Shown one piece after another: positions 18,421-34,873 of a stretch of 64,000 bases of DNA. The notes under the pieces are model-generated. The model was not told where the DNA came from, searched no databases, and worked only from the letters and a program-made list of their open reading frames with translations. A program made the translations under genes and the position numbers. The DNA comes from Gammaproteobacteria bacterium (GTDB lineage Bacteria > Pseudomonadota > Gammaproteobacteria > Steroidobacterales > Steroidobacteraceae): positions 1-64,000 of the forward strand of contig DAHXNE010000017.1 of assembly GCA_027366635.1 (NCBI GenBank), read 5' to 3'. Position 1 is the stretch's first letter. Every line of letters begins with the position of its first letter.

Positions 18421-19554
18421 TCACCGCGCGCCGTGGGCCGCCGCGGCGCCGCCGCTCGAATCGCGGATCACCAGGCGCGGCGAGAGGATCATGCTCTCGG
18501 CCGCCCGTCCCTCGATCTGGTTGATCAGGCTCTGCACCAGAGTCTCGCCGGCGCGCTTGGTGTCTTGCGACACGGTGGTCAGCGAGGGGCGGGTAACCGC
18601 GCCCATGGGTATGCCGTCGAAGCCCACTACCGCGATGTCCTCTGGAACGCGCCGACCGGCGGCCGTGAGCGCTCCCATGGCGCCAATGGCGATCAAGTCG
18701 CTGGCACCGAATACGGCATCGAATTCCACGCCTCGCTCGAGCAGTCTGTGCAGTCCGGTCGCGCCGGAAACCTCGGTCGAGACGGCCGACACTTGCAGGC
18801 GCCGATCGGCGCCCACGCCGGCATCGTCCAGTGCCGCGCAATAGCCGCGGTATCGGTCGGCCATTTCCGGCGCCGAAGGCTCGATTTCGCCGATGAAGGC
18901 GATGCGTCGGCGACCGAGGCCGATGAGGTGCTCGGCGGCAAGCCGGCCGCCTGCGACGTTGTCGCAGCCGACCGAAACGCCGGGATGATCCGGCAGTACC
19001 TGGCCCCAACGCACCAGATGCGCGCCATGCTCGATCAGCGTCTCGAGGCGCTCGCGATAGGCCATGTAATCGCCGTAGCCGAGCAGGATGATGCCGTCGG
19101 CTTTGTGGCTGTCCTCGTAATCGGCCAGCCAATCTCGCAGCAAGTCCTGGAAGGAGACGAGCAGATCGTAGCCCCGGCGCGAGCAGGTGCGGATGATAGA
19201 GCCCAACATCGGATGGAAAAACGGATTGATCGACGAGTCATCCGTGGTGGGATCCTCGAAGAACAACAGCGCCAGCGTCCCGGCGTGCTTGCGGCGCAGG
19301 CTCGATGCGTTCTTGTCGACGTGGTAGTTGAGTTGGCGGGCCACCTCGAGAATGCGCTCGCGCGTGGCGGGGGAGACCATCGGATCGCCGCGCAGCGCCC
19401 GCGATACGGTCGATTGCGACACGCCCGCCAGGTGGGCGATGTCGATCGAATTGGCCGGATGACGTCTGTCGGGGGTGCGCAACAACTCGGTTTGCGCGGG
19501 AGTGCCGGGCGAGGCGAGTTCAGTTCTTTGCACAGCGCACAAGGCAATTCCCAC
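18421..19554 (-). CDS. LacI-family transcriptional repressor of the maltodextrin locus
   Basis: 377 aa. The helix-turn-helix SIDIAHLAGVSQSTVSRALRG begins at about residue 36, followed by the hinge helix region (ILEVARQLNYHVDKNASSLR) and a periplasmic-binding-protein-like sugar sensor (GGRLAAEHLIGLGRRRIAFIG, VVGFDGIPMG, RPSLTTVSQD). The start is unsure: the GTG at 19554 leaves about 35 extra residues before the HTH, so an internal TTG or GTG may be used. It lies downstream of the GH13 gene on the same strand and most likely controls the sugar genes through the repeated site at 21380, 21452 and 26307. Confidence 0.9.
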   Translation of the reverse strand: MGIALCAVQRTELASPGTPAQTELLRTPDRRHPANSIDIAHLAGVSQSTVSRALRGDPMVSPATRERILEVARQLNYHVDKNASSLRRKHAGTLALLFFEDPTTDDSSINPFFHPMLGSIIRTCSRRGYDLLVSFQDLLRDWLADYEDSHKADGIILLGYGDYMAYRERLETLIEHGAHLVRWGQVLPDHPGVSVGCDNVAGGRLAAEHLIGLGRRRIAFIGEIEPSAPEMADRYRGYCAALDDAGVGADRRLQVSAVSTEVSGATGLHRLLERGVEFDAVFGASDLIAIGAMGALTAAGRRVPEDIAVVGFDGIPMGAVTRPSLTTVSQDTKRAGETLVQSLINQIEGRAAESMILSPRLVIRDSSGGAAAAHGAR

Positions 19555-19690: not shown

Positions 19691-21307
19691 TCAGGTGACT
19701 TCGGCGAAGATGACGCCGTAGCCGGGCACTTCCATCTCGTGTCCCTCCATGCGTCCGCTGGCCAGCCCGTGACCTTCGAGCAGCCGGGTCTGTCCGGATA
19801 CCGGCAGGCGCGCGCGCTGCGGCTCGGCCGAGAGATTGAACACCGCTAACACGGTCACACCGTCCAGCCTGCGCTGAAACGCGAGAACCGGCTCGCGCAC
19901 GTCTAGGAAGCGGATCTTGCCCGAGCGCAGCGCCGGCTGCTCGCGGCGCCAGCGCAGGAAGTGACGCAAGCGGTTGAGCGGGGAATCCGCCTCGCTCTCC
20001 TGGCGCGACACCGCCAGCGGCAGATGCTCGTCCGCAACGGGAAGCCAGGGGATGCCGGTGCTGAAGCCCCCGCCGGGACTGTCGCGCCACGGCATGGGAG
20101 TGCGGCAGCCGTCACGACCCTTGAAATTGGGCCAGAACGCGATGCCGAACGGATCGCGTAGCGCCGCGTAGGGCACCTCCACCTCCGGCAGACCCAGCTC
20201 CTCGCCCTGATAGATGCACACCGAGCCGCGCAGCGAGCAGACCATGGCGCTCAGCAGCGTCGCCAGCCGAGGCGAGGCATTCGCCCCTCCCCAGCGGGTC
20301 AACACCCGGACCACGTCGTGATTGGAGAGCGTCCAGCAGGGCCAGCCGTGCGGCATCTGCTGTTCGAGCGCCTGAACCGTCTGGCGAATGTGCGCGGCGC
20401 TATTCTGATCGGTCAGCAGCTCGAAAGAGTAGGCCATATGCAGCCGGGTCTCGCCCACGTATTGCGCCATGGTCGCGAACGAGTCCTCAGCCGAGATCTC
20501 TCCCAGCGAGACGACGCCCGGGTAGTCATCTAACAGCTGCCGCACGCGCTCCAGAAACACCAGGTTTTCAGGCTGTGTATTGTTGTACCAATGATACTGA
20601 TAGGCGTAGGGATTGTCCGGGCTGAAGCCGCGACCGGTACGCTGCTGCTTCGGCTTGGGCGGATTGTCGCGCAGCAGCCGATCGTGGAAACAGAAATTGA
20701 TCGCATCGAGCCGCAGACCGTCGATACCCCGGTCGAGCCAGAACCTGAGATTCTCCAGCACCGCCGCCTGGACCTGCGGATTGTGGAAGTTCAGGTCGGG
20801 CTGCGCGTCGAGGAAATTGTGCAGGTAGTACTGACGACGGCGCGGCTCCCAGCGCCACGCCGGTCCGCCGAACACCGACTGCCAATTGTTCGGCGGCGAG
20901 CCGTCCGCGCGCGCATCGGCCCAGACGTACCAGTCGGAGCGGGGATTGTCGCGGTCCGAGCGGCTCTCCAGAAACCAGGGATGCTCGGCCGAGGTGTGAC
21001 TGATCACTTGGTCGATCATCACTTTCAGCCCGCGCCGATGCGCCTCCTCGACGACGTGGTCGAAGTCCGCAAGCGTGCCGAACATCGGGTCGACCGCGCG
21101 ATAGTCCGACACGTCGTAGCCGAAGTCCGCCATCGGCGAGCGATAAAATGGCGAGATCCAGATGCAATCGACCCCAAGGCTCGCCACGTAGTCGAGCTGC
21201 TGCGCGACGCCCGGCAGATCGCCGACCCCATCGCCATTGCTGTCCCGGAAACTGCGCAGGTAGATCTCATAGATCACCGCTCCCTGCCACCATCTGTTAT
21301 TAGTCAT
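19691..21307 (-). CDS. GH13 alpha-glucosidase, cytoplasmic
   Basis: 538 aa with no signal peptide. The N-terminus WWQGAVIYEIYLRSFRDSNGDG-type opening is typical of alpha-glucosidase/oligo-1,6-glucosidase enzymes (GH13 subfamily 23/31 style). Catalytic residues are D201 (GIDGLRLDAINF), E270 (SLGEISAE) and D331 (LSNHDVVRV). It should cut imported maltose and malto-oligosaccharides to glucose. The ATG at 21307 starts the conserved domain; an upstream in-frame ATG at 21331 is possible. It is divergent from the TonB receptor across a 309-bp control region. Confidence 0.94.
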   Translation of the reverse strand: MTNNRWWQGAVIYEIYLRSFRDSNGDGVGDLPGVAQQLDYVASLGVDCIWISPFYRSPMADFGYDVSDYRAVDPMFGTLADFDHVVEEAHRRGLKVMIDQVISHTSAEHPWFLESRSDRDNPRSDWYVWADARADGSPPNNWQSVFGGPAWRWEPRRRQYYLHNFLDAQPDLNFHNPQVQAAVLENLRFWLDRGIDGLRLDAINFCFHDRLLRDNPPKPKQQRTGRGFSPDNPYAYQYHWYNNTQPENLVFLERVRQLLDDYPGVVSLGEISAEDSFATMAQYVGETRLHMAYSFELLTDQNSAAHIRQTVQALEQQMPHGWPCWTLSNHDVVRVLTRWGGANASPRLATLLSAMVCSLRGSVCIYQGEELGLPEVEVPYAALRDPFGIAFWPNFKGRDGCRTPMPWRDSPGGGFSTGIPWLPVADEHLPLAVSRQESEADSPLNRLRHFLRWRREQPALRSGKIRFLDVREPVLAFQRRLDGVTVLAVFNLSAEPQRARLPVSGQTRLLEGHGLASGRMEGHEMEVPGYGVIFAEVT

Positions 21308-21379
21308 GCTTATGATCCGGCTGTCCTTCATCTTACTCTGACACAGATGGGCGCCGCCGTGGTGCCGCGCCACCGCGCC

Positions 21380-21394
21380 GCATACGTATTCATG
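21380..21394 (-). promoter_or_regulatory. Candidate LacI-type operator 1
   Basis: Read on the minus strand this is CATGAATACGTATGC, identical over 15 bp to 26307-26321. The core ATACGTAT is a perfect palindrome with the central CG typical of LacI-family operators. It lies 73 bp upstream of the GH13 start. Assignment to the adjacent repressor is inferred. Confidence 0.6.
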
Positions 21395-21451
21395 TCGCGC
21401 CACTTTGGTTGATGTCCCGAGCGCCGCTCGGTGCGGCGCGCCGGGCGAAAG

Positions 21452-21466
21452 TATGAATACGTATGC
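21452..21466 (+). promoter_or_regulatory. Candidate LacI-type operator 2
   Basis: TATGAATACGTATGC differs from operators 1 and 3 only in its first base. It lies 151 bp upstream of the TonB receptor start, on the receptor side of the divergent region. Confidence 0.6.
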
Positions 21467-21616
21467 GGTCGCTTGCTTTCGATCTGACTGATACCAATCA
21501 TTCGACTGGCGGTTCTGTCGCGGTAGTCGGGGGAGTGCGTCGTCGTGCCCGGCTCGGCGCCGGACAGAAACTCGGTTGGATCGCAATCAGCATATCTGCT
21601 CCTTGGGGGGGTTCTC

Positions 21617-24565
21617 GTGATTACCAGACGCAAGCGCAATATCCTTGAAATAGCAGTGGCCACCGCCTGCTTCGGCGCCGCGACCGTCGCCGCCGTCATG
21701 CCGGTCACCGCCGTCGCCGCGCCGCAAAACGCGCCTGCGCCTACGACGGCCAGCAAAAAACTGGTCAGCAAGCAAGTGGTTAACCAACGCCTGCTCAAGC
21801 CGGTGAAGATCAACGGTTACATCAGCAGCATCGAGAACGCGATCGCGATCCAGAAGAACTCGAACTCCATCGTGGAGGCGATTTCGGCGCAGGACATCGG
21901 CCGCCTGCCGGCGACAAGCATTGCGTCGGCGCTGGAGCAATTGCCCGGCGTCTCGGTGCAGATGGTGGGCGGCGAGCCGCAGGCGGTGAACTTCCACGGC
22001 CTCGGCGAGGACTTCAGCACGGCATTGGTCAATGGTGTCGAGCAGGTCACCACCGCGGAAAATCGCGGCGTCCACCTCAACCAGTATCCGCCCGGCTGGT
22101 TCAGGGCCATCAAACTGTACGCAAGCCCGAAAGCCGATCTGATCGGTCAAGGCATGGCCGCGACGCTGGATATGCAGACCTGGAAGCCGCTCGACGAGCC
22201 AGGGCCGAGAGGTGCGGTCAACATGGATTACACCTGGCTCACTCCCGGGGATCTCATGCCGGGCCCTGGCGTCAACGACAAGGGCTACGACGTCAATGGC
22301 ATGTACATGACCCAGTTCGACCACCACAAGCTTGGTGTCATGGCGGGCGTGGACGTGTCTGTCCAGCCTGAGAAACGGCTGCGTGAGGCGCCGTACGGAT
22401 TCGCAACCGGTGCGGCCGGTACCGCTGCTGCCGGCGATCTTTTGCCAGGCGGCGTGAAAGGTTACAACTATTCGGCGCTGCGCAAGCGAGAGTCGGTCAT
22501 TACGACCATCCAATACCGCCCGAACAGCGTCTATGACACCGATCTGACTTTAACCTACGAGCGTTACCACAAAACGACTCAGCGCAAGGGCCTCGAGATC
22601 CAGCTGGCCGATAACAGCGTGACACAGCTGACGTCACTCGGACCGGTGGTCAACGGATTTGTCGAAAGTGGCACGTACGCCGATGTCTATCCGGTGATTC
22701 GCAACGATTACAACAACCACCACGACCGCGTATACAACCTGGATTGGCAAAACAGACTAAAATTTCCCGATAACTGGATCGGCGAGTTCCAGGCCAGCTA
22801 CAACAGCGCGATGCGCATCTATGGCAAGCTCGAGAGCTATGCGGGCTTCGGCTACGATGGGCCGGCGAATGAAAGCACAGTCCCGCCGACGACCGTCAAT
22901 TTTCGCTATGCGCCGGACGGCCAGCTGCTGCTCAGCTCGCCGCAGGATTTCGCGTCACCCTCGATCGTGCTCACCGACCCGCAGGGGTGGGGCGCAGGGG
23001 CCGGTCTGGTGCAGCAGGGCTTCCTCAACCAACTGCACAACGACGAATACCTCGCGAACTTCAAGCTGAGCGCGCGCCACTATTTCGCGAGTGGGCCCAT
23101 TTCCAGCATGAACGTCGGCGTCGACTACTCGCACCACCACAAGAACCTCACCCTGTCTCAGTATTACGCCGTGCTGCCGGGCAGTTGCTACATCTTCAGC
23201 AGCACCTGCACGCCCACCGAAACCGCGCCGATTCCTGCGAGCGCCTCGGAAGGCTCGGTGGACGCAATGAGCTTCGAGGGCCTCGGGCCGCAGGTCGCAT
23301 ACAACCCGTGGGCACTGCTGTCCAGCGGCGCCGATCTGTTCTACCCAACAACGGACTCGAATACCGGGGCGCTGGGGCCGCCGGATTGGACGCTGCACGA
23401 AGACGATACCTATGGTTTTCTTCAATTCAACATCCACACTTCGCTTGGGCCGGATGTCGGTTTGCGTGGGAACTTCGGCGTTCAGTTGGCTCATACGGTC
23501 CAGGAGTCTCGGGGCTCGCGCATTGCCCCGCCGGCCACTCCGGGAGGGCCATCGATCCTGATTCCTATGGCCGGTGGTACGTCATACACGCGTTATCTAC
23601 CGAGCCTGAATCTCGTATTCTCCTTCCCGCATAACTATGACGCCCGCCTCGGTATCGCGCGGACCATGGCTCGGCCGCTCATGACCGATATGGCCGACAG
23701 TCTGGCAGTCGGCACCGACACCTCGTACCTGACCAGCACGGACCCGAGTCAAGCGTATTTCAGCGGCGGCGGCGGTAACCCAGCCCTGTTGCCGACAATG
23801 GCGACCAACTACAACCTGAGTCTGGAGAAATATTTTTCAGGATCAGACTATCACTGCACGCCGGGGGAGCGGGCCGAGAATTCCTCCCTGTGCCTGACCG
23901 GAGGCGCTGGCTTCGTGCAGTTGTCGGGTTTTTATCTCAGCTTGAGCGATTACATCAACGAATCGGCGGCGACGCTCTACAATTTCGCGCCATTCGTCGA
24001 TACGTACCTGACTCCAGCGCAGCAGCAGGACTTGGGTACGACGTATGGTACGCTGACTATTCCGAATAATGACGGCTCCGGCCACATCTATGGCGGTCAG
24101 CTCGCCACCAACCTCCCGTTCGGCGACCTGACGCACTGGCTGGGTGGCTTCGGCGTGGAAGCGAGCGCGACCCTGACGCACAGCACCGTGTACTATGCAG
24201 GCGACCCGCAGCCGGTGACGGTGCTGGGTCTTGCCAAATGGGTCCAGAATTACACGCTGTACTATGCGTACCGCGGCTTCCAGGCGGACGTGAACTTCAA
24301 CTCGCGTACCAAGGCGCTTGCTGAAATCTACGGCATCAGCGAAACTCGTCAGGCGGACATGCAAAGGGCGCAGCACTGGATCAGTGCGCAGGTGAGTTAT
24401 GAATTCAGCCAGGGCATGCTCAACGGGCTGACCTTGATCGCCTCGGGACAGAACCTCGGCAACGAGGTGCAGGAGGAATATCAGGGCAACGACCCCCAGA
24501 ATCTCATCCGCTGGGAGGAGTATGGACGTACCTTCAACGTGGGCTTCTCCTATCGGTTTGACTGA
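21617..24565 (+). CDS. TonB-dependent outer-membrane receptor for oligosaccharide uptake
   Basis: 982 aa. The N-terminus has a basic start, a hydrophobic core and an A-x-A-type site near residue 35, as expected for a Sec signal peptide. The plug domain spans roughly 60-180 (SIVEAISAQDIGRLPATSIASALEQLPGV-type opening, then FHGLGEDFSTALVNGVEQ), and the rest is a beta-barrel that ends GFSYRFD. The long loops and size fit the oligosaccharide receptors of proteobacterial sugar loci, and the gene context makes maltodextrin the likely ligand. The GTG at 21617 follows a G-rich ribosome site. It is the only TonB receptor in the window. Confidence 0.92.
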   Translation: MITRRKRNILEIAVATACFGAATVAAVMPVTAVAAPQNAPAPTTASKKLVSKQVVNQRLLKPVKINGYISSIENAIAIQKNSNSIVEAISAQDIGRLPATSIASALEQLPGVSVQMVGGEPQAVNFHGLGEDFSTALVNGVEQVTTAENRGVHLNQYPPGWFRAIKLYASPKADLIGQGMAATLDMQTWKPLDEPGPRGAVNMDYTWLTPGDLMPGPGVNDKGYDVNGMYMTQFDHHKLGVMAGVDVSVQPEKRLREAPYGFATGAAGTAAAGDLLPGGVKGYNYSALRKRESVITTIQYRPNSVYDTDLTLTYERYHKTTQRKGLEIQLADNSVTQLTSLGPVVNGFVESGTYADVYPVIRNDYNNHHDRVYNLDWQNRLKFPDNWIGEFQASYNSAMRIYGKLESYAGFGYDGPANESTVPPTTVNFRYAPDGQLLLSSPQDFASPSIVLTDPQGWGAGAGLVQQGFLNQLHNDEYLANFKLSARHYFASGPISSMNVGVDYSHHHKNLTLSQYYAVLPGSCYIFSSTCTPTETAPIPASASEGSVDAMSFEGLGPQVAYNPWALLSSGADLFYPTTDSNTGALGPPDWTLHEDDTYGFLQFNIHTSLGPDVGLRGNFGVQLAHTVQESRGSRIAPPATPGGPSILIPMAGGTSYTRYLPSLNLVFSFPHNYDARLGIARTMARPLMTDMADSLAVGTDTSYLTSTDPSQAYFSGGGGNPALLPTMATNYNLSLEKYFSGSDYHCTPGERAENSSLCLTGGAGFVQLSGFYLSLSDYINESAATLYNFAPFVDTYLTPAQQQDLGTTYGTLTIPNNDGSGHIYGGQLATNLPFGDLTHWLGGFGVEASATLTHSTVYYAGDPQPVTVLGLAKWVQNYTLYYAYRGFQADVNFNSRTKALAEIYGISETRQADMQRAQHWISAQVSYEFSQGMLNGLTLIASGQNLGNEVQEEYQGNDPQNLIRWEEYGRTFNVGFSYRFD

Positions 24566-24662: not shown

Positions 24663-24688
24663 GCCCGGCCGGAGCGATCCGGCCGGGC
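24663..24688 (+). terminator. Terminator-like hairpin after the TonB receptor gene
   Basis: An 11-bp perfect stem (GCCCGGCCGGA / TCCGGCCGGGC) with a GCGA tetraloop, followed by the pyrimidine-rich GCCTCTCTT. It lies 97 bp after the receptor stop and 84 bp before the halogenase start, so it should lower but need not abolish read-through. Confidence 0.7.
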
Positions 24689-24772
24689 GCCTCTCTTGCA
24701 AACTACCCGATGCGCAAGGGGCTTGGGCTGCGCCGCCTGCGCCGATCCAGTGCGGCGCGCCGGAGGTGCATT

Positions 24773-26311
24773 GTGAGTGAACAGCCCGTTCGGCGCGTCG
24801 TCATCGTGGGCGGAGGCACGGCCGGCTGGATGAGCGCGGCGGTGCTGGTCCGGACCATGGCCGCGAGCCTCGAGGTCCGGGTCGTCGAATCGGAGTCGAT
24901 CGGCATCATCGGGGTCGGCGAGGCCACGATCCCGCAAATCCGCAACATCAACACTTTCCTCGGCATCGACGAGGACGCGATGCTGCGGGCGACCAGCGGT
25001 ACGTTCAAGCTCGGAATCGAATTCAACGACTGGCTGCGCGTCGGGCATTCCTATCTGCACGCCTTCGGCGCGGTTGGGCTGCCGCTCGGACCGCTGCCGT
25101 TCCAGCATTATTGGCTGCGCAGCCGTGCCGACCCGGCGACGCCGGATCTGTGGGCCTATTCGCTGAATGCCGTGGCGGCCCGGGCGCACCGCATGTCGAG
25201 GGTCGGTCAGATCGGCCGTACGCCGATCAGCGGGCTGCGCTACGCATTCCATTTCGATGCAGCCCGCTACGCGCGCATGCTGCGCGAATACGCCGAGCAG
25301 CACGGCGTGATGCGCACCGAAGGCAAGGTCGTCGACGTCAAATTGCGTGGCGGCGACGGATTCATCGAGTCGCTGATCCTCGACTGCGGCGAGCGGATCG
25401 AGGGCGATCTGTTCATCGATTGCTCGGGATTCCGCGCGCTACTGATCGAAGGCGCGCTGCACAGCGGTTTTGATGATTGGCGGCATTGGCTGCCGTGCGA
25501 TCGGGCGGTGACAGCCAGGGCAGAAAACGGCGCCGCACTGCGTCCGTTCACGCAGGCCACGGCGCGCCCCGCGGGCTGGCAGTGGCGTATCCCCCAACAG
25601 GAGCGCAGCGGTAACGGCCACGTTTACTGTAGCGAATTCATGAGCGACGATGAGGCGACGGCCATCCTGCTGGCCAATCTCGAGGGCCGCGCTCGCGGCG
25701 AGCCGCGGATCATCCGCTTCGCCACCGGCGTACGGCGCCGCCCGTGGCTGCGCAACTGCATTGCCCTCGGACTCGCCGCCGGCTTCATCGAGCCACTCGA
25801 GTCGACCGCGATTCATCTGGTCCAATCGGGCATCAGTCGGCTGCTCGCCTTGTTTCCCGATGCCGGCTGTGACGTTGGGCTCGCTGCTGAATACAATCGC
25901 AAGACGTGCGAGGAATACGAGCAGGTGCGCGACTTCCTGGTGCTGCATTACCGCGCGACCGAGCGGCGCGACACGCCTTTCTGGCGGCACTGTGCGGCGC
26001 TGCCGGCGCCGCCGGGGCTGGCCCGCAAGCTCGAGATCTTCCGGGCGACCGCCCAGATTTTCCGCGAGGGCGAGGAGCTGTTCACCGAGCAGTCCTGGCT
26101 GCAGGTGATGATCGGCCAGGGCATCCTGCCGCGGCGCCATCATCCCGCCGCGGACGGCGTGTCCGCTGCGCAGCTCGACGATTTCTTGTCCAACATCCGT
26201 ACCGTGATTCACACGGCGGTCGGGCGCATGATCAGCCATGAGCAGTTCATAGCGGAGCATTGCGCCGCGGCCGCGAATCGAATCGTACCGGTCGATCCGC
26301 AGCTGTCATGA
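24773..26311 (+). CDS. Tryptophan-halogenase-like flavin-dependent enzyme
   Basis: 512 aa. The FAD motif VIVGGGTAGWMSAA is at 10-23. The flavin-dependent halogenase motif GWQWRIP (W-x-W-x-I-P) is present, which in the family excludes monooxygenase activity. K79 (TFKLGIEF) and E343-S344 (IEPLESTAIHL) sit where the catalytic Lys79 and Glu346-Ser347 of PrnA-type tryptophan halogenases lie, so the active site looks intact. The GTG at 24773 has CGGAGG 6 bp upstream. Similar genes recur in TonB-receptor sugar loci of Xanthomonas- and Caulobacter-like bacteria, where their substrate is unknown; halogenation of free tryptophan is not implied by this context. Confidence 0.88.
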   Translation: MSEQPVRRVVIVGGGTAGWMSAAVLVRTMAASLEVRVVESESIGIIGVGEATIPQIRNINTFLGIDEDAMLRATSGTFKLGIEFNDWLRVGHSYLHAFGAVGLPLGPLPFQHYWLRSRADPATPDLWAYSLNAVAARAHRMSRVGQIGRTPISGLRYAFHFDAARYARMLREYAEQHGVMRTEGKVVDVKLRGGDGFIESLILDCGERIEGDLFIDCSGFRALLIEGALHSGFDDWRHWLPCDRAVTARAENGAALRPFTQATARPAGWQWRIPQQERSGNGHVYCSEFMSDDEATAILLANLEGRARGEPRIIRFATGVRRRPWLRNCIALGLAAGFIEPLESTAIHLVQSGISRLLALFPDAGCDVGLAAEYNRKTCEEYEQVRDFLVLHYRATERRDTPFWRHCAALPAPPGLARKLEIFRATAQIFREGEELFTEQSWLQVMIGQGILPRRHHPAADGVSAAQLDDFLSNIRTVIHTAVGRMISHEQFIAEHCAAAANRIVPVDPQLS

Positions 26312-26321
26312 ATACGTATGC
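26307..26321 (+). promoter_or_regulatory. Candidate LacI-type operator 3
   Basis: CATGAATACGTATGC overlaps the stop codon of the halogenase gene and lies 176 bp upstream of the GH31 start. It is identical to operator 1. It implies a separate regulated promoter for GH31 and the genes after it. Confidence 0.6.
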
Positions 26322-26496
26322 GAAACGTTGCCAGGATGGCGGCTGCGTCGCATTCTCAACGACCTGATTCGGGGGGGGGCACGGCAGGCAAGGCTCGGCG
26401 CGCTCTCGCCACGTTACCTGGATGAGGCTTCAGTCCCAAGCAACAGTCAGCCGCGCATGGGCGCCGTGCGCGCCGCCGCCGGGGGAATGCAACGAC

Positions 26497-28884
26497 ATGA
26501 AATCAGGATATCGACGCGCCGCCATCCTGGCGGCAGGACTGCTCAGCATGTGCGCCGGTGCCGGCGCCCACGCCGCCGGTACGGTCGTCAAGGCGTTGCC
26601 GACGGGAGTCGTCGTGAAGTACGCCGGCGGGACGCTGGATCTCGATCTCGTGCGGGCCAATGTCCTGCGTGTGCACTTCCTGCCGTACGGACATGCCACG
26701 CCGCCGGCGTTGGTGATTTCCCCGCGGGCTCCGCGGGCCGCGGCCACCCGGGTCACAATCCACCAGCAGGGCGACCAAGTGGTCCTGCAAAGCGAGCGCA
26801 TGCGGGTGATCTTCAATCGCCGCGCCGGTACGCTCAGCGTCTACCGCCCTGGCGCGTCGGCATCAGTTCTGACTCAGCATGGCTTGAGGCTCCTCGGCCG
26901 GGACACCTTGGCGGTGGGCTTCCGGCCGCGCAACGCCGCGTTGTACGGCGTGCATGGCTTCAATTCCTTTCAATCGGCGCGGTCGGGCATGTTGCGCATG
27001 GGTCGACAGTTCGCCACCGCGGGCTGGGAGGGTGACGCCGGAGCGCCCCTCGTATGGAGCACCTCGGGATTCGCGCTGCTGGTCGACAGTCAGAAGACGC
27101 TGTTCGATCTCGGCCACGGCTTCATCAAGGTGCTGCATGAAACCCGTCCCGATCTCGACTATTACCTGATCCTCGGAAATCCGTCGCGGATCTTCTCCAC
27201 GCTGGATGTGCTGACGGGTCACGCGCCGATGTTCCCCAAATGGTCGTTCGGCTTCATCAACAGCCAGTGGGGGATCAACCAAGGAGAACTGCTGCGCATC
27301 GTCCACCAATACCGCAAGCTGCATATCCCGATCAACGCTTTTGCGCTCGACTTCGACTGGAAAGCCTGGGGTCAGAACAATTACGGCGAATTCCGCTGGA
27401 ACACCAAGAAATTTCCCGCTGGTCCGAGCGGCAAGCTGGGCCGCGAACTCGCCGCAGAAGGTATTCACCTCATCGGCATCATGAAGCCGAGAATCTTCCT
27501 GGACACCGTCGAAGGGCGTTACTGCACCCAGCATCACCTGTTCCTCCCGGGTGAGAAGCCGAGCCTGGACTATTGGGCGCACAAGCCGACCAAGACGCTC
27601 GACTTCGAGAAGGCGGCGACCCGGAAATTCTTCTTCAACGCGACGCTGCGGCACAGCTTTGCCAGCGGCATCGTTGGCTGGTGGAACGACGAGGCCGACG
27701 AGACCGGCAATGACCGGCAATTCTTCAACATGGAGCGCGCGCTGTACGACGGCCAGCGCAAGTACTTCCCCAAGCAACGCGTCTGGTCGCTGAACCGCAA
27801 TTTCTGGCTCGGCGCGCAACGCTATGCCTACGGCCTGTGGTCAGGGGACATCAAGAGCGGGTTCAAGAGCATGGCCGCGCAGCGCCAGCGGATGCTGAGC
27901 GCCATCGACGTCGGCGAAATGTGGTGGGGCATGGACGGCGGCGGCTTCAGTGGGCATCCCTCCGGGCAGAATTACGCGCGCTGGCTCGAGTTCGACGCCT
28001 TTGCGCCGATCACCCGGGTTCACGGCAGCTACCTGCAGCGCCGGCAGCCGTGGCTCTACGGTCAGACGGCGGCTCGGGCCGCCACCCACGCCCTCGATCT
28101 GCGCTACCGCCTATTCCCCTATATCTACTCCCTGGCCTGGAACGAACATCGCACGGGAATCGGTCTGGTTCGCCCGCTGTACTTCCTGTGGCCGCATGAC
28201 CCGCACGTGCGCAATGACTACAGTGCGTGGATGTTCGGACCGTCGCTGCTGGTCTCGCCGGTGGTCGGCCGCAACCAGCGTGTCAAGAACCTCTACCTGC
28301 CACCCGGTACCTGGACCAATTTCTTCACCGGCAAGCTCTACCACGGCAATCAGGTCATCACTCTGGCGCTCGACCACAAAACGTTCGCGGACATCCCGCT
28401 GTTCGTCCGCCAGGGCGCGATCATCCCGATGCAACCCCTCATGGAATACATCGGGCAGCATCCCGTGACTCAGGCGACGGTGGAGGTGTTCCCGGCCAAA
28501 CGGGCCACCCACTTCGACTATTACGATGACGATGGCGAGACCTACGCCTATGAGCACGGCGACTACTTCGTGCAGCGCCTCGGCGCCCAGGCGCGTGGCC
28601 CCACCGTCAGTCTCACTGTCGGCGCGGTGCGCGGCACATACAAACCCGCGCTTCGCCGCTACCTGTTCGTCGTGCACCAAGTCGAGGCCCGGACAGTGAG
28701 CATCGATGGGCACTTGCTGCACCCGGCGGCCAAGCGCGCGGCGCTCGCCGGATGCAGATCCGCCTGTTGGGCACGTGGCCACAATGAGGCCGGACCCCTG
28801 ACTTTCGTCGACCTGACGGCCGGCCGGCCCTACCGCGTGAGCATCGAGACCGTCAGCCGCGCGGGCAGCGGGGATCCAAACTAA
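26497..28884 (+). CDS. GH31 alpha-glucosidase/alpha-xylosidase-type, exported
   Basis: 795 aa. The signal peptide MKSGYRRAAILAAGLLSMC continues to an A-H-A cleavage site near residue 25. The N-terminal beta-sandwich leads into the GH31 barrel: ALDFDWKAWG, nucleophile D398 in GWWNDEADE, acid/base D451 in LWSGDIKSGF, and MDGGGFSGHP. A C-terminal beta domain follows (FDYYDDDGETYAYEHGDY). The family contains alpha-glucosidases, alpha-xylosidases and related transglycosidases; the maltodextrin context favours alpha-glucosidase. The ATG at 26497 follows GGGGG. Probable periplasmic location. Confidence 0.93.
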   Translation: MKSGYRRAAILAAGLLSMCAGAGAHAAGTVVKALPTGVVVKYAGGTLDLDLVRANVLRVHFLPYGHATPPALVISPRAPRAAATRVTIHQQGDQVVLQSERMRVIFNRRAGTLSVYRPGASASVLTQHGLRLLGRDTLAVGFRPRNAALYGVHGFNSFQSARSGMLRMGRQFATAGWEGDAGAPLVWSTSGFALLVDSQKTLFDLGHGFIKVLHETRPDLDYYLILGNPSRIFSTLDVLTGHAPMFPKWSFGFINSQWGINQGELLRIVHQYRKLHIPINAFALDFDWKAWGQNNYGEFRWNTKKFPAGPSGKLGRELAAEGIHLIGIMKPRIFLDTVEGRYCTQHHLFLPGEKPSLDYWAHKPTKTLDFEKAATRKFFFNATLRHSFASGIVGWWNDEADETGNDRQFFNMERALYDGQRKYFPKQRVWSLNRNFWLGAQRYAYGLWSGDIKSGFKSMAAQRQRMLSAIDVGEMWWGMDGGGFSGHPSGQNYARWLEFDAFAPITRVHGSYLQRRQPWLYGQTAARAATHALDLRYRLFPYIYSLAWNEHRTGIGLVRPLYFLWPHDPHVRNDYSAWMFGPSLLVSPVVGRNQRVKNLYLPPGTWTNFFTGKLYHGNQVITLALDHKTFADIPLFVRQGAIIPMQPLMEYIGQHPVTQATVEVFPAKRATHFDYYDDDGETYAYEHGDYFVQRLGAQARGPTVSLTVGAVRGTYKPALRRYLFVVHQVEARTVSIDGHLLHPAAKRAALAGCRSACWARGHNEAGPLTFVDLTAGRPYRVSIETVSRAGSGDPN

Positions 28885-28964
28885 ACGAAGCGCCGTACGC
28901 GGCCGACCCGGCCGTGTCCGCGGCGATGCGGGCTGTTGCGCGTGTCTATGCAGAGTGGAGCAAT

Positions 28965-31037
28965 ATGGTGAATGACCTGACCAGAACACAGGCGAACGAT
29001 CCAAGAATCGCTTGCTTTACACGCGCGGCCAGGCTTGCGCCGATGTTCGCGACCGCACTGCTGGCCATCGGCGCGCACGCGGCGTTCGCGCGCACTCCTG
29101 CGCGCCGCGCCGCCCGAGCGTCGGCGATCATCAAGGCGGATCTGTTCTCGGATCAGGGCACGATGTACGACAGCAACCAGGAGCCGAGCGCGACGCAGCC
29201 GGTGACCGTGATGCTGCGCACCGGGCACGATAACGTCACCAGCGCGACGATCAAGTACTACGACAGTGGCGATCACGCATTTCATTACGTGCGCATGCGC
29301 AAGCGTGCCACCGATCCAACCGGACGATTCGACTATTGGCAGGGCACGATCCCGGCGGGTCCCGCCGAGAAGTATTACCGGTTCCGGGTGACAAACGGAG
29401 CGCAGACCCTGTGGTACAACGCCGCCGGTGCGAGCACGACTCAGCCGGCGGTTGGCGATTTCTTCATCATTCCGGGATTTCGCACGCCGAACTGGATGAA
29501 GAATGGCGTCATGTACGAGATCTTCGTCGACAGTTTCTACGACGGCGATCCCAGGATTCGGGTCAAGAGCAATCAATACAGGTTTCTCGGCTGTGCGGCC
29601 GAACATCATGCTTGGGGAACCACCACCCGGCCGTGGGTTCGCGGCTGTGGCCAGTATGTCTTCTTTGGCGGCGACCTGGCGGGCATCGAGCAGAAACTCG
29701 GCTACATAAAAAATACCCTGGGCGCGAACATTCTGTATCTCACTCCGATCTTCCAGGCGCCGACCAATCATAAATACGACACGACCAATTATTACAAGGT
29801 GGATCCGTCGTTCGGCACGGCGCGGACGCTGGAGAAACTGATCCACGCCGTGCACGGCGACAAAAACGGTCCAAGGGGCTACATCATTCTCGACGGCGTG
29901 TTCAATCATACCGGCGGCTCAAACTGCTGGTTTGGCCGGTACCGGTACGATCATATCTCGTGCAAGGTCATCGGCGCGTACCAGTCGCGCTCCAGCCCGT
30001 ACTACTCCTGGTACACTTTTCAACACTGGCCGAACCAGTATTCGAGCTTCGAGAACATGGTTCCCGATATGCCGAAGCTGAACTACGGGGCAACGGGCTC
30101 GCCGGTTCGCGAACAGATTTACGCAGCAGCGCATTCAGTGGTGCAGACCTACCTGAAACCGCCTTTTGGAATCGACGGTTGGCGGCTTGACTCGGCGCAG
30201 ATGCTCGACGCGAACGGTGGTCGCGGCAGTGACGCGACCAATCATCAGATCATGCGGCAATTGCGCGCCGCGGTGTTGTCGGTCAATCCGCACGCCGAGA
30301 TCCTGGGCGAGTATTGGGGAAATCCCGCGCCGTGGCTGGACCACGGCAACCAGTGGGACGGAACGATGAACTACAATGGTTTCACCAATCCACTCTCGGA
30401 ATGGATGTGCGGGGTCAACGAAAGCGGTAAGCCGGGGTCCCTCGACGTCAGGCAATTTTCGGCCTGGCTGCATCGGGCGCGTGCCGCGTTGCCCGTGGCG
30501 GCCCAGGAGACCATGACCAACGAACTCGGCACCCATGACACTCCGAGATTCGCGACCCGGTGTGGTGGCGTGCTGGCCAGAAGCGAGCTGGCCATGGTCT
30601 TCCAGTTCACCTACGTCGGGACGCCGACCATCTACTACGGTGATGAGTACGGGATGCGCAGTCCGCCGGGCTTCGACAATCGGCGTACCTTTGAATGGTC
30701 GAAGGCGACGCGACGCGATCCGCCGGTCGCTCTGGCGCACAAGCTCATCATGATCCGTCATCGTTACGCTGCGCTGCGTACCGGATCGTTCATCACCCTG
30801 CTAAAGGACAACCGACAGGATGTCTACGCCTTCGGCCGATTCGATCGCAAACACCGGATCGCCGTGGTGCTGAATGCGTCCGGTCGGCCGCAAACCGTGA
30901 CGGTACCGGTCTGGCAGCTGAGCGACGCGAACGGATCGAAGGTCAGTGACTTGCTGAACAGCACTGCCTATCGAGTGACGGACGGGGTCGTGCGGATTAC
31001 CCTCTCCGGCTATCACGGAGCGATACTCGAACAATAG
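28965..31037 (+). CDS. GH13 alpha-amylase/neopullulanase-type enzyme, exported
   Basis: 690 aa. The N-terminus has a long basic region, a hydrophobic stretch and an A-F-A site near residue 44, so export is likely. Residues about 50-165 form an immunoglobulin-like domain as in neopullulanases and cyclomaltodextrinases, then the GH13 barrel: DGVFNHTGG (region I), GIDGWRLDSAQM with nucleophile D409, EILGEYWG with E449 and LGTHDTPR with D525. It should break longer malto-oligosaccharides or cyclodextrins in the periplasm. The ATG at 28965 has GGAG 4 bp upstream; an earlier in-frame start at 28914 would put the hydrophobic segment too deep. Confidence 0.92.
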   Translation: MVNDLTRTQANDPRIACFTRAARLAPMFATALLAIGAHAAFARTPARRAARASAIIKADLFSDQGTMYDSNQEPSATQPVTVMLRTGHDNVTSATIKYYDSGDHAFHYVRMRKRATDPTGRFDYWQGTIPAGPAEKYYRFRVTNGAQTLWYNAAGASTTQPAVGDFFIIPGFRTPNWMKNGVMYEIFVDSFYDGDPRIRVKSNQYRFLGCAAEHHAWGTTTRPWVRGCGQYVFFGGDLAGIEQKLGYIKNTLGANILYLTPIFQAPTNHKYDTTNYYKVDPSFGTARTLEKLIHAVHGDKNGPRGYIILDGVFNHTGGSNCWFGRYRYDHISCKVIGAYQSRSSPYYSWYTFQHWPNQYSSFENMVPDMPKLNYGATGSPVREQIYAAAHSVVQTYLKPPFGIDGWRLDSAQMLDANGGRGSDATNHQIMRQLRAAVLSVNPHAEILGEYWGNPAPWLDHGNQWDGTMNYNGFTNPLSEWMCGVNESGKPGSLDVRQFSAWLHRARAALPVAAQETMTNELGTHDTPRFATRCGGVLARSELAMVFQFTYVGTPTIYYGDEYGMRSPPGFDNRRTFEWSKATRRDPPVALAHKLIMIRHRYAALRTGSFITLLKDNRQDVYAFGRFDRKHRIAVVLNASGRPQTVTVPVWQLSDANGSKVSDLLNSTAYRVTDGVVRITLSGYHGAILEQ

Positions 31038-31118: not shown

Positions 31119-33377
31119 ATGCATCATCATGCTGGAACGGCCCGAAAGGCGTGGGTTGTAGGGGGCGCGCTGGCGTGCTTCGCCGCGCTAGGCGCGCTGT
31201 ATGCGCCAACGGGCGCCGCGGCGGTCGCGCCGGCGACATTCGGGTCATGGCATTCGACGCTCCGTTGGCAGGGGCGGGAGGCGCGCATAACGCGCTTGGC
31301 GGACGGCGCCTATCTGCTGCGGTCTCCGGCCAGAACGCGCACTATCCGGCGACAGGCCGACCGGACGCGCACCGCGAGCATGCTGTTCGACGCACTGTTT
31401 GCCATGGCGCAAGCGGATTTGCGCAAGGACTCGGTGCGCGCCATCCGCGATCCGGCCTTCAAACACGGCAAACCCATCTTGTGCCGCTGCTTCATCGCGG
31501 GCAAGAAATGGCCGTTCACCTGGACACGCGATGTGTCGTATTCGACCGACCTGGCGTTGTGGCGGTTCGCTCCGACACGCGCCCGCACCTCGCTGCTGTT
31601 CAAGCTCTCACCGGCTCGCGGTGCCGGCGTGCGGCCCGGGCTGTACGTCATGGAGGATACCGGCTCGGGCGGCAGCTGGCCGGTCAGCACGGATCGCGTG
31701 GTCTGGTTTCTCGGGGCGCGCCATCTGCTCGGCAATGCGCGCTTCGCCGCACAGGTCTACCGGGGGCTGAAGGATACCCTGCGGCAGGATCGTCGCTACA
31801 CCTTCGATCCCGCCGTCGGCCTGTATCGGGGCGAGACTTCTTTCCTCGACTGGCGCCAGCAGTCGTATCCGGAGTGGACCGCCCACAACGTGGTGTTCAT
31901 CGCGCAGTCCTATGCGCTCTCGACCAACGTGCTGCATTACGATGCTCTGCGGCTGGCGGCGTCCCTGGCCGGTCAGCACGGGCAACCGGCTCTCTCGCGC
32001 CGCTATCGCCAGCAGGCGACGGCGCTGAAGCAGGCCATCAACCGTCGCTTCTGGCAGCCGGATCGGGATCTGTACATGAGCTACATCGGCGGCCGTGTCC
32101 GCCCGGCGCCCTACGACGCCTACGATCTGCTCGGGCTCGATCTGGCGATCATCAGCGGCGTGGCCGATCCGGCCCGTGCACGGCTCATACTCTCTCACTA
32201 TCCGATCTGGCCGGCCGGGAACCCCGTGATCTGGCCCGAACGGCGCGATCAACCCATCTATCACAACAGCGCGATCTGGCCGTTCGTGAGCGCGTACACC
32301 TTGTGGGCGGCGCGCCGGGTCGAGGACGGGCCGCTGATCGCGCGCGAGGTGCGGTCGCTGATGCGCGGCGCGGCGTTGAGTGGCTCCAACATGGAGAATT
32401 TCACCCTGCTGACGCAATCGACGCACGTGCCGGGCCGGCTCGGGGGCCCGGTGGTCGACTCGCGACGGCAGCTCTGGTCGGTGGCCGGCTATCTCGATAT
32501 GGTGGTGCGCGGGGTTTTCGGCCTGCGCGATGACGGCAGCGTCCGACCCGAGCTGCCGGTCTCGCTCGTTCCGATGCTCTTCGGCCGCCGGCGCGAGATC
32601 AGCCTGACCCTGGGCGCGAGGCGCATCGAGCTCGAGCGACCGCGACACATCACCGGAAATCTGCTCGTTGCCGGATCGCTCAGCCGGCAGGGGCATTTGA
32701 CGCGGGTGCGGCTGGTCGGGCGCCAGGTGACCGCGCCGCCGCTTCGAACGCATGCGCCGATGTATCTGCCGCCGACGCCGCCGGCACCCGTGGTCAAGGC
32801 CGCCAGCGATCACTGGCTCGTACAGTCGCGGGCCGCGGGCTTTTTGTACCTCAATGGCCGCCGCATCGGCTCGATCATCCGACGCAGACGGATCGTTCAG
32901 GTCGACGGTCTGCAGTGCTTCAGCGTGACGGCCCGGGGACCGACGGGTCTGCAGTCTCTGCACAGCCGTAATACCTGCGTCGGCCCGGTGAGTACCGTGC
33001 TGTCATCCTGGCCGCGCCATTGGGTCGCGCCGCGCTCCGGGTCCTACCTGGCGTGGGTCGACTATGACAATCCGAATGGTCCAATCAGCACTGGGATCAC
33101 CGCGGCGGTGCGGCGCATGGTCATCCGCTGCGGCCGCGCCGCCCGGCGGGTCCGGCCCCTGGTCATGCCCCAAAGCGATGGTGTGCAGGCCTCCACGGTG
33201 GTCCACTTCCAGGCCCGCGCCGGAGCACGCTGCACGTTCCGGCTGGTCGGTGGCTTCAACATGAGCAATCTGACGCATTATGCCTACTACACCGGCGGGG
33301 CGGGCGGGCCCGCCGGGCCGCTCGACAGCGCGCAGATCTACGCACTGCGCATCGCGCCGCTCGGCCCCACGTCATGA
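31119..33377 (+). CDS. Exported six-hairpin (alpha/alpha)6 glycosidase, family not assigned
   Basis: 752 aa. A signal peptide (basic start, hydrophobic core 12-35, A-V-A site) is followed by an (alpha/alpha)6-barrel type protein: KKWPFTWTRDVSYSTDLALW, ETSFLDWRQQSYPEW, YHNSAIWPFVSAYTLWAA and DSRRQLWSVAGYLDMV. These resemble the wall motifs of GH15 and related six-hairpin enzymes, so hydrolysis of terminal alpha-glucosyl units is plausible, but I cannot name a GH family. The last 250 residues form a separate beta-rich, Arg-rich domain with paired cysteines (LQCFSV, NTCVG, IRCGRAA, RCTFRL). The stop overlaps the MFS start by 4 bp. Confidence 0.75.
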   Translation: MHHHAGTARKAWVVGGALACFAALGALYAPTGAAAVAPATFGSWHSTLRWQGREARITRLADGAYLLRSPARTRTIRRQADRTRTASMLFDALFAMAQADLRKDSVRAIRDPAFKHGKPILCRCFIAGKKWPFTWTRDVSYSTDLALWRFAPTRARTSLLFKLSPARGAGVRPGLYVMEDTGSGGSWPVSTDRVVWFLGARHLLGNARFAAQVYRGLKDTLRQDRRYTFDPAVGLYRGETSFLDWRQQSYPEWTAHNVVFIAQSYALSTNVLHYDALRLAASLAGQHGQPALSRRYRQQATALKQAINRRFWQPDRDLYMSYIGGRVRPAPYDAYDLLGLDLAIISGVADPARARLILSHYPIWPAGNPVIWPERRDQPIYHNSAIWPFVSAYTLWAARRVEDGPLIAREVRSLMRGAALSGSNMENFTLLTQSTHVPGRLGGPVVDSRRQLWSVAGYLDMVVRGVFGLRDDGSVRPELPVSLVPMLFGRRREISLTLGARRIELERPRHITGNLLVAGSLSRQGHLTRVRLVGRQVTAPPLRTHAPMYLPPTPPAPVVKAASDHWLVQSRAAGFLYLNGRRIGSIIRRRRIVQVDGLQCFSVTARGPTGLQSLHSRNTCVGPVSTVLSSWPRHWVAPRSGSYLAWVDYDNPNGPISTGITAAVRRMVIRCGRAARRVRPLVMPQSDGVQASTVVHFQARAGARCTFRLVGGFNMSNLTHYAYYTGGAGGPAGPLDSAQIYALRIAPLGPTS

Positions 33378-34873
33378 GCGGTAAGCCCGAGCTCTCGTTC
33401 CGGCAAATCTGGAACATGTCCCTCGGGTTTCTCGGTATCCAGTTCGCCTTCGGGCTGCAGACCGCCAACGTCAGCCGCATCTTCCAGACCCTCGGGGCCG
33501 ACATGCAGCAGATCCCCGTGCTCTGGGTGGCCGCCCCGATCACCGGTTTGTTGATGCAGCCGATGATCGGCTACGCCTCGGATCACACTTGGGGTCGCTT
33601 CGGCCGGCGGCGCCCGTATTTCCTCGGCGGCGCGATTCTCACGACTCTGGCGCTGGTGGCGATGCCGAACTCCCCCGCGCTGTGGGTGGCGGCGGTGATG
33701 TTGTGGCTGATGAACGCATCGGTCAACATTTCGATGGAGCCATTTCGCGCGTTCGTCGCCGATCAGCTGCCGACCTCGCAGAGGCCCCTGGGGTTTGCGC
33801 TGCAGAGCTTTTTCATCGGTGTCGGTGGAGTGCTCTCCTCGATCCTGCCATGGGTGCTGGCTCGCTTTGGCGTTGCCAATGTGGCGCCGGCCGGGCAGAT
33901 TCCGGACACCGTGCGCATCGCATTCTATGCCGGGGGTGCGGTGATGCTGGCAGCCGTGGCATGGACCGTGTTCACCACGCGCGAATATCCGCCCGAGCGG
34001 CTGCACAGTTTCAGCGATTCGCTGCCGGCGCATGCGGACGCCGATGTGTCTGGCGCCTGGCGGCCGGGGCTGGCGCTGCTCGTGGTGGGCGCCACCGGCG
34101 TGTTCGTCATCTGGCATCTCTCCCTCGACGCGCAGTTGTACCTGCTGGCCGGGGGTCTGGCCGTGGCCGGCGCACTCTATTTGTGGTTGAGCCGCACGCG
34201 CTCTCGGGGCGTAACGCGCCAGGTCATGACCGACCTGTACGGCATGCCGGGCCCGATGCGGCGTCTGGCTTGGGTGCAGTTCTTCTCCTGGTTCGCGATG
34301 TTCGCCCTGTGGCTGTACGCCACGCCGGCGGTGACTTCGGTGCAGTTCGGCAGCAGTAATCCACTGTCGGCGGCGTATAACGCGGGCGCCAATTGGGCGG
34401 ATGTGCTCGCGGGCGCGTACAGTGGCTTTGCCGTCCTGGCGGCTCTGGTGATCCCGCTGATGGTGCGAGCCGCGGGCCTGCGCTGGAGCCACGTGATCAA
34501 CCTCGCGGCGGCGGCGCTGGGGTTGATCTCTTTCGTCTGGATCCGCAATCCCGACTGGCTGCTGCTGTCGATGCTCGGAGTGGGCTTCGGCTGGGCGTCG
34601 ATCCTGTCGCTCCCTTACACGCTGCTTGCGGACAACCTGCCGGCCGAGAAGATGGGCGTGTACATGGGCATGTTCAACTTCTTCATCACCATTCCCCAGA
34701 TTCTGGCGGCGAGCGTGCTCGGGGTGCTGCTGCACGCGTTCTTTGAAAATCAGCCGGTGTACGGCCTGGTGCTCGGCGGAGTCAGCCTCCTGATCGCGGG
34801 CCTGTGCACGTTGCGCGTTGCCGAGCCGGGCGCCGGAGCGCTGGCCGCGCGCGTGCCGGCCCAACTGACCTGA
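33374..34873 (+). CDS. MFS sugar permease (MalA/SLC45-like)
   Basis: 499 aa with about twelve hydrophobic helices. The N-terminal WNMSLGFLGIQFAFGLQ and the loop GYASDHTWGRFGRRRPYF (D-x-x-x-x-R-x-G-R-R-R-P) are the hallmarks of the disaccharide permease group found in TonB-linked maltose loci. It probably brings maltose or short maltodextrins across the inner membrane by proton symport. It is translationally coupled to the glycosidase gene by a 4-bp overlap and ends the sugar locus. Confidence 0.92.
   Translation: MSGKPELSFRQIWNMSLGFLGIQFAFGLQTANVSRIFQTLGADMQQIPVLWVAAPITGLLMQPMIGYASDHTWGRFGRRRPYFLGGAILTTLALVAMPNSPALWVAAVMLWLMNASVNISMEPFRAFVADQLPTSQRPLGFALQSFFIGVGGVLSSILPWVLARFGVANVAPAGQIPDTVRIAFYAGGAVMLAAVAWTVFTTREYPPERLHSFSDSLPAHADADVSGAWRPGLALLVVGATGVFVIWHLSLDAQLYLLAGGLAVAGALYLWLSRTRSRGVTRQVMTDLYGMPGPMRRLAWVQFFSWFAMFALWLYATPAVTSVQFGSSNPLSAAYNAGANWADVLAGAYSGFAVLAALVIPLMVRAAGLRWSHVINLAAAALGLISFVWIRNPDWLLLSMLGVGFGWASILSLPYTLLADNLPAEKMGVYMGMFNFFITIPQILAASVLGVLLHAFFENQPVYGLVLGGVSLLIAGLCTLRVAEPGAGALAARVPAQLT

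Follow-up and report, generated by a model that had tools for sequence, protein, structure and literature searches.

A BrvH/Xcc4156-type halogenase recurrently paired with a TonB-dependent receptor in sugar-uptake loci

Introduction

BrvH and Xcc4156 are flavin-dependent halogenases of the kind considered here. According to the available portions of the two papers, both enzymes halogenate free indole and its derivatives, and both combine an open site with a failure to use free tryptophan (PMC5945002, PMC7336383). These portions treat BrvH-type halogenases as biocatalysts whose natural substrates are unknown, and the authors of both propose a peptide substrate, as for MibH (PMC5945002, PMC7336383). 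The low indole activity of BrvH was taken by its authors, in the part of their paper available, to mean that indole is not the natural substrate (PMC5945002).

Here we describe a 64,000-nucleotide stretch of a Steroidobacteraceae genome (the window), in which such a halogenase gene lies directly downstream of a TonB-dependent receptor (TBDR) gene within a LacI-type alpha-glucan locus. A search of the open-access PMC literature found no description of a receptor-halogenase linkage. The notable part is the stable partnership of the halogenase with a receptor class, not the kind of enzyme itself.

Results

The halogenase gene and its product

The halogenase is encoded by an open frame of 512 residues with a GTG start (Table 1). 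A longer, ATG-started frame from position 24,710 is less likely to be the gene, because the GGAGGTG ribosome-binding site precedes the GTG codon. The product matches PF04820 with 605 bits (cut-off 21; E 1e-181) over profile positions 1-456 of 458. Compared with each of eight orthologues, the gene shows dN/dS values of 0.14-0.21 and is therefore a gene under purifying selection, not a chance open frame. These values, together with the co-occurrence with the receptor and the adjacency counts given below, rule out a pseudogene.

Both by sequence (phmmer) and by fold (structural alignment), the halogenase is nearer BrvH/Xcc4156 than the free-tryptophan halogenases, and on its sequence we assign it as a further member of the BrvH/Xcc4156 kind. 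An AlphaFold2 model calculated from 16 aligned relatives (mean pLDDT 78.6, pTM 0.82) spans the whole fold, with pLDDT below 50 at residues 44-52 and 260-281. No signal peptide is apparent in the protein.

The first-pass annotation had described the catalytic residues as intact and the enzyme as standing in a sugar locus, and both statements hold. The GxGxxG motif, K79, the E343-S344 pair and the WxWxIP motif are all present, and they are invariant in 16 locus-linked relatives. Among 234 distinct halogenase sequences, K79 is kept in 229 and E343 in 226. Four further residues are also widely retained in this set, namely H96 (230), F98 (221), W404 (233) and W442 (216), which we take to form an aromatic cage by analogy with RebH and PyrH. 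On this analogy, an indole-sized cage appears to be conserved across the halogenases. Judging from its residues and its relatives, the window enzyme should be active, and its chemistry is very likely halogenation.

Five distinct full-length paralogues (listed in Table 1) have lost both Lys79 and Glu343 and carry Ser/Thr and other residues instead. They stand in tandem arrays with copies that look active, in the vicinity of receptors, and two of them (L133 and L159) match PF04820 over nearly the full profile. They are possibly pseudo-enzymes or partner subunits.

Table 1 Features of the window locus, and halogenase paralogues lacking Lys79/Glu343 in other loci
Feature	Position	Strand	Basis or remark
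LacI-family regulator	18421..19554	-	
GH13 enzyme	19691..21586	-	ORF as listed; true start further in
Operator-like word ATGAATACGTATGC	21380..21393	-	GH13 side of divergent promoter region
Operator-like word ATGAATACGTATGC	21453..21466	+	receptor side
TBDR, TIGR01782 (TonB-Xanth-Caul)	21617..24565	+	GTG start (predicted)
GC-rich perfect hairpin between receptor and halogenase	24664..24687	+	no T-run; not called a terminator by scan
GGAGGTG ribosome-binding site of halogenase	24762..24768	+	sequence
Flavin-dependent halogenase (PF04820, BrvH/Xcc4156 type)	24773..26311	+	GTG start; Pfam, phmmer, structural alignment
Catalytic Lys79 codon	25007..25009	+	sequence, alignment
WQWRIP motif (W269-Q-W271-R-I273-P274)	25577..25594	+	sequence, alignment
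Glu343-Ser344 codons	25799..25804	+	sequence, alignment
Operator-like word ATGAATACGTATGC	26308..26321	+	at halogenase stop, ahead of GH31
GH31 alpha-glucosidase-like enzyme	26422..28884	+	
GH13 neopullulanase/cyclomaltodextrinase-like (maltodextrin glucosidase/cyclomaltodextrinase kind)	28914..31037	+	
Six-hairpin glycoside hydrolase	31119..33377	+	weak family match
MFS sugar transporter	33374..34873	+	
Paralogue without Lys79/Glu343	L168:6718-8469	+	
Paralogue without Lys79/Glu343	L159:6920-8470	+	
Paralogue without Lys79/Glu343	L257:7757-9319	+	
Paralogue without Lys79/Glu343	L260:2667-5009	-	
Paralogue without Lys79/Glu343	L133:8512-10008	+	

The alpha-glucan locus and its operator-like words

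The halogenase is surrounded by a LacI regulator, two GH13 enzymes, a GH31 enzyme, a further glycoside hydrolase, the TBDR and an MFS transporter, arranged in the order LacI, GH13, TBDR, halogenase, GH31, GH13, GH, MFS and then uvrD. None of the annotated neighbours of the window halogenase is a biosynthetic gene.

A 14-base word with a palindromic core, ATGAATACGTATGC, has exactly three exact copies in the 3.03-Mb genome. All three are located in this locus, where they flank the TBDR-halogenase unit on both sides. One copy falls inside the 5' end of the listed GH13 frame, and the true start of that gene therefore lies further in. In the orthologous loci L087-L090, L092 and L106 the word is found at both matching places; it is found at one place in L086 and L093, whose loci are cut by contig ends, and with mismatches in L091. 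More distant loci (L108-L111 and L113, including those of Fulvimonas and Rhodanobacter) also carry it, in front of the receptor gene. We infer that ATGAATACGTATGC is a putative LacI operator.

The gap between receptor and halogenase has a median of 122.5 bases over 110 pairs. Of the 96 distinct gaps that are 60 bases or longer, 49 contain an 8-bp GC-rich hairpin, compared with 0-3 in ten mononucleotide shuffles. The window gap taken as a whole folds barely better than its shuffles (z -1.33). In six close loci a TGCTAGCAT-like element stands ahead of the halogenase, and this element is absent from the window; a promoter of its own is thus possible for the halogenase in some loci, but not in general.

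Recurrence of the receptor-halogenase pair

Relatives of the halogenase (E <= 1e-60) are present in 46 of 120 genomes sampled from the family, and the richest genomes hold at least 12, a figure that is a lower bound. Close orthologues of the halogenase (72-79% identity) occur in nine of the 120 genomes, the window's own included, and orthologues of the receptor (54-73%) occur in the same nine; among the eight orthologues the halogenase is the better conserved of the two proteins. In addition, three weaker receptor matches (in G106, G035 and G010) also adjoin a halogenase by their coordinates. In one genome (G080), a receptor fragment of 264 residues lies where a contig ends.

The first-pass annotation had remarked that such pairings recur in TonB sugar loci, a remark that can now be given in numbers. 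A TBDR lies within 4 kb of 142 of the 159 halogenase genes that have at least 4 kb on both sides, in loci chosen by halogenase similarity and incompletely de-duplicated, so that certain contigs seem to be represented by both a named and an unnamed locus. The receptor is upstream on the same strand in 101 of these 142 pairs. It lies within 500 bases of the halogenase in 94 loci, and in 80 of them it is again upstream on the same strand. Among the 17 remaining halogenases, two have a neighbouring TBDR of another class.

Whole genomes give a similar picture. In 16 of them, 78 of 117 halogenases (one being a partial match) are within 5 kb of a TIGR01782 receptor. The expected number is 3.4 for the 138 receptors kept, from which low-scoring or partial rows and second gene pieces had been dropped or merged by hand, and it rises to 19.4 of 117 when every first-look TBDR candidate counts. 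For six of these genomes (G106, G115, G044, G010, G119 and G003) at most 31 receptor candidates each were scored, which makes their receptor numbers minimum values. The ten genomes with all candidates scored were therefore also counted separately; in them 34 of 57 halogenases are near a receptor, with 1.2 or 5.6 expected.

The pairing extends beyond the family. A receptor is found within 4 kb in 69 of 80 named loci, which are the best 80 of 585 confirmed candidates and not a random sample; by class, these are 31 of 35 in Alphaproteobacteria, 11 of 13 in Betaproteobacteria, 22 of 26 in Gammaproteobacteria and five of six unplaced. The pairs occur in alpha-glucan, GH3, GH30 and GH97 loci.

A contrasting case is a clade halogenase at L095:9154-10671(-), which is flanked by genes for an aspartate kinase/decarboxylase and an M24 peptidase, with no receptor seen nearby. 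Likewise, no TBDR was present among the neighbour genes examined in two loci of the window's own genome (L011 and L012).

Several other halogenase genes were observed. A second, convergent halogenase, 53-59% identical to that of the window, stands beside the first in L086, L087, L089, L090, L091 and L093; the window, L088 and L092 lack it. A paralogue in the window's genome (L014:9369-10709(+)) is split over several frames, as a broken gene or an assembly error; its neighbours are a TonB-type outer-membrane receptor gene on one side and GH125/GH39 genes on the other. A divergent halogenase-like gene (L015:7906-10208(-)) is located directly upstream of a chorismatase-like gene, possibly in an aryl-polyene pigment cluster, a setting that we assume to be linked to xanthomonadin.

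Stability of the pair and comparison of receptors

A tree of 172 receptors (115 with a linked halogenase, 57 without) shows 14 changes of linkage, compared with 43-54 in 100 shuffles. In 483 of 825 within-genome comparisons, the best partner according to the halogenase is also the best according to the receptor, whereas 500 shuffles gave a mean of 307 and a maximum of 409. These patterns argue that receptor and halogenase have been passed on together across distantly related taxa. Block inheritance of the locus would give the same congruence, and the result therefore speaks for stability and not for contact between the two proteins.

The linked and unlinked receptors were also compared column by column, with 28 linked receptors of a second class excluded. 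In this loose alignment of 3230 columns, no tryptophan column is general to the 115 linked receptors relative to the 57 unlinked ones. The best tryptophan column is occupied in 0.70 of the linked and 0.28 of the unlinked receptors, and the window receptor has Asp there. The strongest difference between the two groups is a plug-domain Ser (0.72 versus 0.11). Paired contrasts on the receptor tree rest on very few informative pairs and do not settle the tryptophan column. A shared receptor tryptophan was thus not retained as the target, on evidence that this loose alignment leaves weak either way.

Other families in these neighbourhoods

Three further families cluster around these genes. In the 16 genomes, 24 of 27 SapC, 25 of 35 Cupin_8 and 8 of 12 DUF6445 genes, as counted from Pfam searches, have a halogenase or a TIGR01782 receptor no more than 5 kb away; for each family the genes kept would give fewer than one, an expectation that is low because only kept receptors were counted. 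Home-made DUF6445 and Cupin_8 profiles, into which some antisense ORFs had entered, were set aside. In G010:C1:3344293-3351963, a receptor, a halogenase, SapC, Cupin_8 and a second halogenase form one run, and similar runs are present in L080, L082 and L250. Of these families, the window locus has the halogenase alone.

One SapC protein (L077:11082-11828(-)) gave a confident AlphaFold2 model (pLDDT 94.7), which found no convincing match in a comparison against the PDB only (best Foldseek E 0.24; no structure reached a VIA Z of 2). The idea that SapC is a recognisable oxygenase is not borne out by this structure comparison. Sequence searches of SapC and DUF6445 against the PDB returned nothing useful.

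Discussion

The sugar itself is probably not the substrate of the halogenase, because the sugar varies between loci while the receptor class and the aromatic cage stay constant. We consider the best explanation, at a probability of roughly 40%, to be that the enzyme halogenates a peptide or protein tied to the receptor system on one of its aromatic side chains. The preference for such a target follows from the constant cage and the changing sugar, together with the open site of BrvH and Xcc4156, their rejection of free tryptophan and the peptide substrate proposed in the available text on them. The receptor, or a peptide associated with it, is a target that the first-pass annotation had not considered.

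Under this explanation, maltodextrin would lift a LacI-type repressor and so allow joint synthesis of receptor and halogenase; with a hairpin lying between their genes, less of the halogenase may be made than of the receptor. A general reductase would supply free FADH2, which would react with O2 and halide, with bromide presumably preferred by analogy with relatives. The resulting hypohalite would travel to Lys79 and to an aromatic ring, which the H96/F98/W404/W442 cage would keep in place. This ring would be that of an indole or some other aromatic side chain, carried by a peptide or protein of the receptor branch; candidates are a small peptide, a partner protein and the precursor of the receptor. 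Since the enzyme lacks an apparent signal peptide and the destination of the receptor is the outer membrane, the modification would have to take place before export, a constraint that counts against this explanation.

Several observations count against this explanation. No tryptophan is general to the receptors, and the peptide halogenase MibH aligns to the model with Z 30.2, below the Z 32-36 of the free-tryptophan halogenases. The halogenase is more conserved than its receptor among the eight orthologues, and the congruence of the pair would equally arise if the locus were inherited as a block. In addition, some clade halogenases have no TBDR nearby, and BrvH and Xcc4156 act on free indole according to the available text, both of which weigh against a target tied to the receptor.

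The last two points, together with the conserved indole-sized cage, favour a serious rival explanation: the halogenase may make a small halogenated aromatic (an indole or another metabolite) for signalling, protection or export, and may merely be co-expressed with sugar uptake. We nevertheless consider this somewhat less likely than a peptide or protein target. The low activity of BrvH on indole, as read by its authors in the available part of their paper, argues against indole as the natural substrate (PMC5945002). Moreover, the neighbourhood of the window halogenase holds no annotated biosynthetic gene, and a small product leaves unexplained why so many of the paralogues in a single genome, which may hold at least 12, adjoin a receptor of their own.

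Modification of an imported ligand, or of an aromatic group linked to the sugar, would fit the position of the gene in an uptake locus whose receptor is specific to that locus. However, alpha-glucans carry no aromatic group, and several glycan types are served by one conserved cage, which makes this explanation improbable. The sugar-linked aromatic compound suggested in the first-pass annotation accordingly finds no support, as alpha-glucan, GH3, GH30 and GH97 contexts share that same cage. For its suggestion that a TonB ligand is modified, the observations speak neither for nor against. A redox function with no halogen, also suggested there, is disfavoured to the point of being very improbable. 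Flavin chemistry in the absence of substrate does yield peroxide or hypohalite, and five of the 234 distinct paralogues persist in receptor-linked arrays without Lys79. Against this role stand the near-universal retention of Lys79, Glu343 and the aromatic cage and the low dN/dS of the gene. Finally, although these organisms are rich in receptors and up to 19.4 of 117 adjacencies would be expected at the most generous count, a chance neighbourhood with no functional link is scarcely credible, being contradicted by the 78 observed, by the strict co-occurrence in nine genomes and by the conserved order and strand.

Halogenation of a receptor-linked peptide or protein could be part of something wider. 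The TBDRs of many proteobacteria might be served by dedicated modifying enzymes encoded alongside them, namely BrvH-type halogenases, joined in certain operons by SapC and Cupin_8 proteins. The halogenase would then brominate an aromatic residue, either in the precursor of the receptor or in a peptide associated with it, amounting to a widespread and unrecognised halogenation of envelope proteins. We regard this broad form as rather unlikely.

With the halogenase tied to one outer-membrane receptor class, the receptor system, and no longer metabolism at large, becomes the place to look for its substrate. The TBDR-halogenase locus also offers a clean genetic test, with one operon, one inducer and one knockout. 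If the target is a protein, a new kind of surface-protein modification would exist in bacteria that consume plant or algal sugars; if it is a small molecule, the production of halometabolites would be tied to sugar uptake. Either way, genomes with at least 12 such halogenases need explaining.

Comparison with known systems

The maltodextrin TBDR loci of MalA (Caulobacter) and XCC2469 (Xanthomonas) group a regulator, a TBDR, alpha-glucan enzymes and a sugar transporter, as described in the available part of the corresponding paper (PMC1790865). The window locus has the full MalA-type set, consisting of a LacI regulator, a TBDR, alpha-glucan hydrolases and an inner-membrane sugar transporter, and differs in its halogenase; the word halogenase does not appear in that paper (PMC1790865).

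MibH, the peptide tryptophan halogenase (5uao), shares the fold of the window enzyme with 26% identity and is a working model for a peptide substrate. Its gene presumably belongs to a lanthipeptide cluster and does not lie beside a receptor. The free-tryptophan halogenases PrnA, RebH and PyrH have the fold, the FAD site and the Lys/Glu pair in common with the window halogenase, at 28-34% identity in structural alignments. The longer substrate loop of RebH would not be shared if the alignment with BrvH holds. According to the available text, BrvH lacks the long-loop residues that hold the amino and carboxyl groups of free tryptophan, and the alignment of the window halogenase with BrvH is ungapped over residues 413-499, the region of the short substrate loop of BrvH.

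BrvH of Brevundimonas (6frl) matches the window halogenase with a phmmer E of 1.6e-138 and the model with Z 38.1; a difference, as far as the available text goes, lies at the second halide-site position, which is Ser352 in BrvH and Ala346 here. The word TonB does not appear in the text of the BrvH and Xcc4156 papers (PMC5945002, PMC7336383). Xcc4156 of Xanthomonas campestris (6y1w; phmmer E 7.9e-152, Z 38.4) has the same catalytic residues. The closest solved structure is the "tryptophan halogenase" of Pseudoalteromonas sp. L11 (9luq), for which a search of the open-access PMC literature gave no paper and which matches with a phmmer E of 1.2e-160 and aligns to the AlphaFold2 model with Z 38.7 and 43% identity over 481 residues.
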